Source: Tuberibacillus sp. Marseille-P3662 (GTDB lineage Bacteria; Bacillota; Bacilli; Bacillales; Sporolactobacillaceae). From it: DNA of 64,000 bases. Position numbers and translations under genes: made by a program. The notes under the pieces were generated by a model, which was not told where the DNA came from, did no database searches, and saw only the letters and a list, made by a program, of their open reading frames with translations. Below are positions 4,683 through 45,831 of this stretch, in pieces. How positions within the stretch are numbered: the first letter of the stretch is position 1; every line of letters begins with the position of its first letter. The stretch spans positions 1,302,001 through 1,366,000 of the forward strand of contig NZ_FXBS01000006.1 of assembly GCF_900178005.1 (NCBI RefSeq), in the 5' to 3' direction.

Positions 4683-4722
4683 TAAAAAAACCCCCTTCAT
4701 CCTGTTAGGACAAAGAGGGTGT
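4683..4722 (-). terminator. pyrR-pyrB intercistronic attenuator terminator
   Basis: On the minus strand, ACCCTCTTTGTCC pairs with GGATGAAGGGGGT over 13 positions (some G-U pairs) around a short TAACAG loop and is followed by seven T residues. It lies between the PyrR-binding motif and pyrB, as expected for the terminator arm of PyrR-controlled attenuation. Confidence 0.9.
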
Positions 4723-4785
4723 AGGTTCATGAAGATCGACGCAGGTCTTCTTATAGGCCTACGTCCATCTTAAACCTCCCTTTGT

Positions 4786-4800
4786 CAGCCTCACAGGACT
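4786..4800 (-). promoter_or_regulatory. PyrR-binding loop (anti-antiterminator) before pyrB
   Basis: The minus strand reads AGTCCTGTGAGGCTG, matching the conserved PyrR RNA-binding loop (ARUCC-N-GNGAGGYU). Flanking TCCCTTT and AAAGGGA can form the lower stem. With UMP bound, PyrR would stabilise this hairpin, prevent the antiterminator and allow the terminator at 4683-4722 to form. The identical 15-base motif occurs before pyrR. Confidence 0.88.
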
Positions 4801-4825
4801 GCCCTTAAAAGGGACTCATATATGA

Positions 4826-44134: not shown

Positions 44135-45194
<1,060 letters not shown>

Positions 45195-45227
45195 ATCGTT
45201 CATCCTCTAATATAGCATTCGTTATTC

Positions 45228-45280: not shown

Positions 45281-45310
45281 GTATAGTTTACAAGAATGAT
45301 GGCAAATATA
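45281..45310 (+). promoter_or_regulatory. sigma-F/sigma-G-like promoter of the csfG candidate
   Basis: GTATA (45281-45285), exactly 15 bases, then GGCAAATATA (45301-45310) on the plus strand. This fits the forespore sigma-F consensus (GYATA, N15, GGNNANANTR). It is placed so that transcription would begin near 45317 and run into the terminator at 45428. Confidence 0.65.
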
Positions 45311-45316
45311 GTAATA

Positions 45317-45457
45317 GCAACATCGGTTATGATGTTGTGCAACCGCGGAGACTTACGTTTCCCCATAAGTTTTTCCGCCGGTTTCTCCTCTCCCATTGTC
45401 TTGGCATACTTAGATATGCGTAAAGACGCCCGCAGGTGTTATACCTGCGGGCTTTTT
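45317..45457 (+). ncRNA. csfG: CsfG-like small RNA (forespore RNA between ylbG and ylbH)
   Basis: About 140 bases on the plus strand, opposite to both neighbours, bounded by a forespore-type promoter and a strong terminator. Predicted structure: a hairpin CAACATC/GATGTTG; a two-part stem AACCG-CGGA with TCCG-C-CGGTT enclosing ACTTA/TAAGT with a C-rich loop; a single-stranded pyrimidine tract (45381-45395); a small GCATA/TATGC hairpin; and the terminator. B. subtilis has the sporulation RNA CsfG (earlier called the ylbH leader motif) in this same gap. No open frame with a ribosome-binding site lies in it. Exact ends are estimated. Confidence 0.7.
45428..45457 (+). terminator. terminator of the csfG-like RNA
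   Basis: GCCCGCAGGT and ACCTGCGGGC form a 10-bp GC-rich stem with a 5-base loop, followed by six T residues on the plus strand. The minus-strand tail (GTCTTTACG) is poor, so the direction is plus although no plus-strand protein gene precedes it. Confidence 0.9.
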
Positions 45458-45482
45458 TATCTAAGTACCAGGCCACTAACAA

Positions 45483-45746
45483 CTAAGCATTTACCTCTTC
45501 TTCGGATGCCTGAGAATGATCTAAATGCTCCTGCCGAAGTTCGTATAAGGCCGAACGTTCCACATTTTCAACCGGCTTTTGCTTCATTAAAGCATTGATC
45601 ATCGATTGATGGTTATGTTCATCACAATAAACAATAGCGTAGTTTAATCGGTTGGATACATAATGAACGTTCCCATAACGACGGAGAATTTTAGCATGTT
45701 TCGGATGCCGAAGCCAGACGATGAGCCCAATTCGTTGTTTATCCAA
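45483..45746 (-). CDS. ylbG: DUF2129 protein YlbG
   Basis: An 87-residue protein beginning MDKQRIGLIVWLRHPKHAKILRRYGNVHYVSNRLNYAIVYCD, matching the YlbG/DUF2129 family; function unknown. The first TTG at 45752 directly abuts AGGGGGG, while the TTG at 45746 lies six bases away and aligns with the B. subtilis start. The C-terminal third is acidic and less conserved. It lies between ylbF and the csfG-like RNA. Confidence 0.9.
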   Translation of the reverse strand: MDKQRIGLIVWLRHPKHAKILRRYGNVHYVSNRLNYAIVYCDEHNHQSMINALMKQKPVENVERSALYELRQEHLDHSQASEEEVNA

Positions 45747-45831
45747 ATTCAACCCCCCTGGTATCGTTTACAATCATGCTTGATTTCATATTAGGCGCAA
45801 AAAGTCACCTATTTGGATAAGACGATGGATT

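Follow-up and report, generated by a model that had tools for sequence, protein, structure and literature searches.

The stretch of DNA analysed here (the window; 64,000 nucleotides of Tuberibacillus sp. Marseille-P3662) carries, between two protein-coding genes on its minus strand, a plus-strand gene for an already-known sporulation small RNA, CsfG. The flanking genes are rsmD (ylbH; 44619 to 45203; TIGR00095, 174 bits), which is transcribed away from csfG, and ylbG (DUF2129; 45483 to 45752; PF09902, 75.6 bits), which is transcribed towards it, and both lie on minus as an earlier note on this DNA had read them. CsfG was reportedly first described by Marchais et al. 2011 in Bacillus subtilis. 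The gap between ylbG and rsmD is also the place of that RNA, and the order ylbF-ylbG-csfG-rsmD-coaD-ylbJ in the window is identical to that of B. velezensis. An Rfam covariance search gave a single match to RF00516 ("ylbH leader") in the whole genome, full-length and located at 45340 to 45462 on minus with 75 bits against a gathering score of 50 (E 7.6e-14). The earlier note had proposed a CsfG orthologue and a search with this family as a check; the score above the gathering threshold and the gene order shared with B. velezensis uphold the proposal, with the match itself falling on the minus strand. We are highly confident of identity, strand and unit taken jointly, i.e., that 45317 to 45457 on plus is a csfG orthologue forming one transcription unit.

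The block ylbJ-coaD-rsmD-csfG-ylbG also occurs at 380240 to 386313 of an 807-kb B. velezensis record filed as a plasmid (NZ_CP083716.1), which is probably a piece of the chromosome. Elsewhere in the window, an ordinary PyrR binding site lies at 4684 to 4816 on minus (RF00515, 66 bits).

Promoter, hairpins and terminator of csfG

On the plus strand, a −35 element GTATA (45281 to 45285), which 90 of 97 orthologues share at the equivalent site, is followed after a 15-nt spacer by the −10 element GGCAAATATA (45301 to 45310) with a sigma-F-like GG. Together they match 11 of the 12 positions of GYATA-N15-GGNNANAHTR, which we take to be the sigma-F form of the consensus, and this match is not equaled once when the same 115 bases are mononucleotide-shuffled 100 times, in keeping with both the sigma-F/sigma-G type of promoter known for CsfG and the plus-strand forespore-type promoter of the earlier note. 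RNA polymerase with sigma-F, and probably also with sigma-G, would transcribe about 140 nt in the forespore from 45317 on plus, a start placed ca. 7 nt past the −10 element, and transcription would end at the terminator at 45428 to 45458, with the 3' end at 45457 placed in its T run.

The small RNA (45317 to 45457, plus) begins with a 5' hairpin (45317 to 45338) that lies outside the Rfam match and shows compensatory changes among orthologues. Next comes the main hairpin (45341 to 45383), whose loop is C-rich (TCCCCA, 45360 to 45365) and whose pairs are retained among orthologues, then a third hairpin (45398 to 45427) that varies across species, and finally the intrinsic terminator, an 11-pair stem (45428 to 45452) followed by TTTTTT. 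The conserved core (45347 to 45395) is the sole match in the genome of a sequence-only model, R1 (50.2 bits, E 8e-13), which was built from 57 rows including the window csfG itself. Within it, the block GGTTTCTCCTCTCCC (45380 to 45394) is present in all 97 orthologues with a tolerance of one or two Ts either way, is mostly unpaired and is presumed to be the interaction strand. As RNA, GGUUU(U)CUCCUCUCCC is found in 97 of 97 orthologues, and the 13-nt motif has a mean predicted unpaired probability of 0.76 compared to 0.40 for the whole RNA; it exceeds the mean of its own RNA in 96 of 97 and reaches at least 0.8 in 54 of 97. The window csfG therefore has highly conserved CU-rich stretches in loops and between helices, as is characteristic of CsfG.

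The predicted plus-strand fold of 45317 to 45457 has four hairpins at −56 kcal/mol (z −6.5), with none of 200 shuffles as good, in agreement with the four stable hairpins over about 140 bases that had been described. Since the minus strand folds comparably well (−59.3, z −6.6), fold energy cannot choose between the strands. A terminator scan called the stem at 45428 to 45452 on plus only, where, as had been claimed, a T run follows the hairpin; the scan is weak by itself because its two terminator-like sites in 1.7 kb compare with a chance expectation of 1.5. The lack of coding potential stood up as well. The longest closed reading frame inside the window RNA has 28 codons from a GTG start, and closed frames of at least 20 codons occur in 40 of the 97 orthologues, which is what a short encoded peptide would have in its favor, but the longest frames scatter in length (median 15 codons, maximum 57), the 5' hairpin varies in length, and there is no freer third position among the 15 invariant columns of alignment A1, columns that are invariant partly by construction because its 57 rows were gathered with the 13-nt motif. 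We therefore consider a peptide-coding role very improbable.

The second G of the −10 element, present in the window, is lacking in 24 of the 25 other loci of the same family (GT in 23, GC in one), several of which have CATAMTA, presumably the sigma-G form. The GG of the window would fit sigma-F better and slightly narrows the choice between sigma-F and sigma-G. Transcription of csfG in the forespore of this organism is a prediction from the promoter sequence and from published work on B. subtilis, where excerpts of two reports place CsfG under sigma-F/G control (PMC3574147, PMC8216469). Expression of B. subtilis CsfG outside sporulation, during anaerobic growth and upon glucose exhaustion, is described in a passage of PMC8216469, and possible expression under oxidative stress in one of PMC4409812. 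Disruption of these sporulation small RNAs caused no obvious sporulation defect according to a passage of PMC9147052.

Orientation of csfG relative to rsmD

The strand of the RNA was assessed across 101 loci (L001 to L101) that were obtained through the Rfam model or picked at its matches. A promoter lies upstream of the Rfam match, 7 to 40 nt away, in 97 of them, scoring 11/11 in 63, 10/11 in 33 and 9/11 in one, with spacers of 15 nt (71 loci), 14 nt (22) or 16 nt (4); in shuffle tests on 57 loci, at most 3 of 100 shuffles equaled the match in 53. L027 and L099 to L101, weak matches with no promoter and no rsmD flank, were removed, and the remaining 97 loci form the orthologue set. The stretch includes rsmD for 96 of these; csfG diverges from it in 92 and is co-directional with it in four. 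In these flipped cassettes (L036 to L038 of family f2 and L060 of family f21; L036 and L060 inspected directly), promoter and RNA are inverted together. To these can be added the named locus L102 and, judged from coaD only, probably L137. A cassette inverted in this way could not act as a leader of ylbH, which speaks against that role for csfG.

Consensus folding of 56 non-redundant sequences points in the same direction as promoter and terminator: the sense strand yields 15 pairs, 11 of them with changes on both sides, whereas the antisense of the same alignment yields two. The sense pairs hold 74 G.U compared to 13 A.C cells, a count biased that way by the choice of the structure on the sense strand. 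Alignment A2 was made by sequence only, and part of the 5' hairpin is poorly placed in some of its rows, e.g., that of L002. Folding of single sequences was rejected as a strand test with no support for plus: the 5' part is more stable on the sense strand in only 16 of 97 loci, so that energy leans towards minus, and G.U pairs are equally frequent (158/2502 versus 164/2500). The earlier note had placed the RNA on plus and denied it the role of a cis leader of ylbH. Promoter, T-run terminator and consensus folding all agree with this strand while single-sequence folding does not, and the second claim is borne out by the cassettes flipped in four of 96 loci from two families and by a northern blot in B. 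subtilis that, in the excerpted text of PMC3574147, detected RNA only from the strand opposite ylbH, identified as CsfG, and no leader-strand RNA.

A cis-acting rsmD (ylbH) leader on minus, the element type assigned to RF00516 ("Cis-reg; leader"), would explain why the Rfam match falls on that strand and why minus equals plus in fold stability and, for single sequences, usually has a small advantage. The window csfG family lacks what defines such a leader, an upstream element in sense direction that folds on the leader strand, in that the antisense consensus is poor, the conserved promoter and terminator are on plus, and the "leader" strand of L036 to L038 and L060 faces away from rsmD. Together with the northern result, this leaves the leader reading hardly credible and in fact already contradicted. 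The label was nevertheless still in use in 2015, as passages of PMC4342826 and PMC4634765 illustrate, and Rfam 15 still types RF00516 as a leader, with the strand reversed relative to the published CsfG transcript. RF00516 and the window csfG are the same locus by the full-length 75-bit match, but the Rfam family takes the opposite strand, excludes the 5' hairpin and leaves csfG members such as L082 to L098 below its threshold.

CsfG of B. subtilis shares with the window RNA the ylbG-ylbH gap, the strand, a sigma-F/G-type promoter and CU-rich tracts between helices, and its 136-nt peak (given in an excerpt of PMC3574147) compares with ca. 141 nt in the window. Relative to the csfG of B. velezensis, used as a stand-in for B. 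subtilis, the main stem of the window RNA is shorter, the first pyrimidine tract is UUUUUCCGCC instead of UUCUUCCUCC, the bases after the core are AUUGUC instead of UUUUCC, and the −10 motif has GG instead of GT.

Distribution among sporulating genomes and on phage contigs

In a class sample of 398 genomes, an even draw from a larger group, RF00516 was detected in 229 at E <= 1e-3 (194 over the Rfam cut-off). SpoIVA, a mere proxy for sporulation ability, is found in 228 of these 229 genomes, and the RNA is missing from 132 of the 133 SpoIVA-negative ones with G346 as the exception, counting the weak SpoIVA matches of G027, G309 and G405 as negative (Fisher p 1e-69, uncorrected for relatedness). 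SpoIVA without the RNA was scored in 37 genomes, 24 of which belong to family f18. The core was seen beside rsmD, missed at E <= 1e-3, in G381, G200, G230, G266, G354, G140, G147, G328 and G408; in G039 a variant, GGUCUCUCCCCUCCCA, is present whose promoter matches at 11/11. The csfG locus of G101 and G192 is probably unassembled since these genomes show no credible rsmD match, and no csfG motif was seen in G421. In family f18, none of the 24 genomes gives a core-model match at E <= 0.01, and no csfG motif is present in the seven of 24 rsmD loci inspected (L226 to L232); csfG may have been lost or replaced there. Genomes of this family have lower-scoring SpoIVA and, in the seven inspected loci, a different sequence upstream of rsmD. 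The window's own family has csfG in 26 of 26 genomes, and the core model finds a single copy in each of 31 relatives including the organism itself. A second csfG-like gene with the core CUUCCUCC-AG-UUUCUCCUCUCCC and an upstream GTATA, with no rsmD nearby, was observed in G547 (L345, 1700 to 1860, minus).

The phylum sample comprised 249 genomes, Bacilli included and without a breakdown by class, a few of which had supplied rows to the core model; any SpoIVA match at E <= 1e-3 was scored positive. The core model matches 115 of the 249, all 115 with SpoIVA, and csfG is missing from all 34 SpoIVA-negative genomes as well as from 100 SpoIVA-positive ones. Searching genome contigs with a pattern that fixes 21 bases of the core gave at least 118 stretches. 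Among the matches listed, a promoter-like match of at least 10/11 is present in 114 of 117 testable stretches (compared to 153 of 3510 shuffles) and rsmD in 108 of 118, and the core extends beyond Bacilli to Fuchsiella (Halanaerobiales), a Dethiobacter MAG, a Syntrophomonadaceae MAG and many Bacillota MAGs. By the same matches, csfG reaches Halanaerobiales, Dethiobacteria and uncultured Bacillota, mostly adjoining rsmD. Core-bearing MAGs labelled Acetobacteraceae and Desulfovibrio are probably mixed bins; of 20 hand-picked loci, 19 were in testable genomes, and 18 of these 19 have SpoIVA, the Desulfovibrio bin being the one without. Several loci (L111, L143, L146, L154, L208 and L216) have an RNA shrunk to about UUCCCCAUAAGCUCUUCCUCCGGUUUCUCCUCUCCC and a hairpin, with no 5' stem strand. 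Since such minimal forms keep only the pyrimidine strand and a hairpin, the linear strand is more constant than the fold. Among 20 phylum loci inspected, L284 and L301 have AG as purine linker, L300 has AA, and L287 and L291 deviate in the second tract.

The core is also found on two viral contigs, L220 (5780 to 6080) and L222 (1365 to 1650), which contain ATAAGTTCTTCCTCCGGTTTCTCCTCTCCCTTT plus one base. These 34 nt agree fully with csfG genes of hosts; a terminator-like hairpin comes after them, and they sit ca. 100 bases behind an integrase gene. The integrase of L222 is a 417-aa ORF matching phrog_1 at E 1.7e-67, while only a 138-aa ORF is open in L220 (phrog_1, E 6e-21); RF00516 scores the two contigs at 38.7 and 31 bits, both below threshold. 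In both contigs GCGCACAAAA-type repeats flank the core block at the same 242-nt spacing, and the core remains enclosed by an outer stem of 10-11 bp. This arrangement suggests that the core in L220 and L222 is probably a phage attachment site within csfG; the retained outer stem would also suit a mimic RNA made by the phage, which is possible.

A third viral contig, L223, starts (positions 1 to 75) inside a csfG-like 3' half that shares 31 identical nt with L059; the ORFs beyond it are phage-like by eye, and the start of the contig may mark a prophage boundary within csfG. Thirteen further viral pattern matches (L362 to L374), together with L221 and L224, were dropped by eye on 60 to 90 bases at each side. 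The viral collection holds no other relative of the L222 integrase within a search that reaches close relatives only, and phage records gave no match. No lysogen was found among the genomes whose second csfG match was inspected (G687, G492, G547 and G639). Rfam also gives second matches in G128, G185 and G206, in each of which the core model finds one strong copy, and G513 has a weak second match. As candidate lysogens, G687 and G492 were rejected for two copies that are alike and at contig ends, resembling overlapping contigs, G547 for a second copy away from rsmD, and G639 for a second match that shows no core. Judged by titles, we found no publication on a phage attachment site in csfG. That the core is kept for phage integration or another reason at the level of DNA rather than RNA might be argued from the two contigs that have it beside an integrase gene, but promoter, terminator and paired stems are conserved as well, and a phage site would not explain why nearly all csfG genomes have SpoIVA; we give this explanation next to no credence.

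The pyrimidine strand and its possible partners

The csfG product would be a trans-acting riboregulator that works through the pyrimidine strand CUCUUCCUCC-RR-UUUCUCCUCUCCC, with UUUUUCCGCC as its first tract in the window. The second half of this strand would stay mostly single-stranded between two hairpins, and the strand would pair with G/A-rich ribosome-binding sites and lower the translation of chosen forespore mRNAs. With CCUCC-RR-UUUCU it resembles the anti-Shine-Dalgarno tail of the ribosome, the 16S tail being CCUCCUUUCU. Such pairing is our leading candidate for the mechanism although we believe in it about as much as we doubt it, and the idea derives from the C-rich small RNAs RoxS and FsrA, which are held to act in this way (in passages of PMC4409812). 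RoxS/RsaE and FsrA share C-rich single-stranded regions with CsfG and are grouped with it in excerpts of PMC4409812 and PMC8216469, a likeness taken from descriptions and not from sequence comparison; by the latter excerpt RoxS is under ResDE and FsrA under Fur, whereas CsfG is under sigma-F/G, and targets are known for RoxS and FsrA. The excerpts of the literature on B. subtilis CsfG report no target, and the introduction of PMC12456014, which has CsfG and another factor regulate mRNAs, names none in the part quoted.

Near-complements of the invariant block are not in excess in the organism's own genome (73 compared to 59 for the reversed pattern), and one of the 73 is the antisense of csfG itself while 14 belong to one dispersed repeat. 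Of the 72 others, 69 were inspected (29 loci and 40 stretches, with three repeat copies omitted), and those near start codons were ranked. Duplex energies with 55 ribosome-binding sites of the window likewise show no preference (−15.1 versus −15.9 for the reversed core). A gene with an ASCH domain (L323; PF04266) came out at the top of many as a candidate target, with −34.2 kcal/mol for one choice of start and −27.1 for the other; a gene of the window reaches −27.3, and the candidate is not claimed. The dispersed repeat, GGGACAGGTGAGACC, occurs in 14 copies among the near-complements, e.g., at G000:C4:138838, 139121 and 139404, three at 283-base spacing.

Instead of pairing with mRNAs, the CU-rich strand might bind a protein and titrate a forespore RNA-binding protein, an alternative that we consider unlikely yet worth keeping in view. 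It would account for a strand that is kept almost letter for letter across much of the phylum, beyond any obvious need of an RNA with many targets, and retained even where the fold is lost; complementary sites are not in excess in the genome or among the 55 ribosome-binding sites of the window, and B. subtilis CsfG co-precipitates with Hfq according to an excerpt of PMC3574147. Against a protein speaks that related C-rich small RNAs are held to act by pairing and that the linker varies between GG, AG and AA while both tracts are constant in L284, L300 and L301, which also fits pairing with G/A-rich RNA; this second argument is qualified by L287, L291 and L233, where the second tract itself differs. 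To our knowledge, no protein partner with that CU-rich motif has been described.

Returning to the pairing reading, the data can be arranged into a broader scenario that we put forward tentatively and with rather more doubt than belief. csfG may be an ancestral sporulation RNA of Bacillota, older than Bacilli and fixed beside rsmD-coaD with a forespore promoter, whose functional part is the linear two-tract pyrimidine strand, with the half-hiding stem of Bacilli gained or lost later. This strand, similar to an anti-Shine-Dalgarno tail, may silence a fixed group of mRNAs in the forespore when dormancy sets in, and the gene may have been constant enough to serve temperate phages for attachment. 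A spread of csfG by transfer is a possible alternative to ancestral descent.

As far as can be judged against the later literature, as opposed to the distribution given by Marchais et al. 2011 itself, the nesting of csfG in spoIVA genomes across the phylum, its minimal forms, its natural inversions and the likely phage site are new. The latter would be a probable phage attachment site inside a sporulation gene. The near-invariant strand and its tie to spoIVA across the phylum open the question of CsfG targets to a direct test, a comparison of Bacilli with minimal forms found outside this class.
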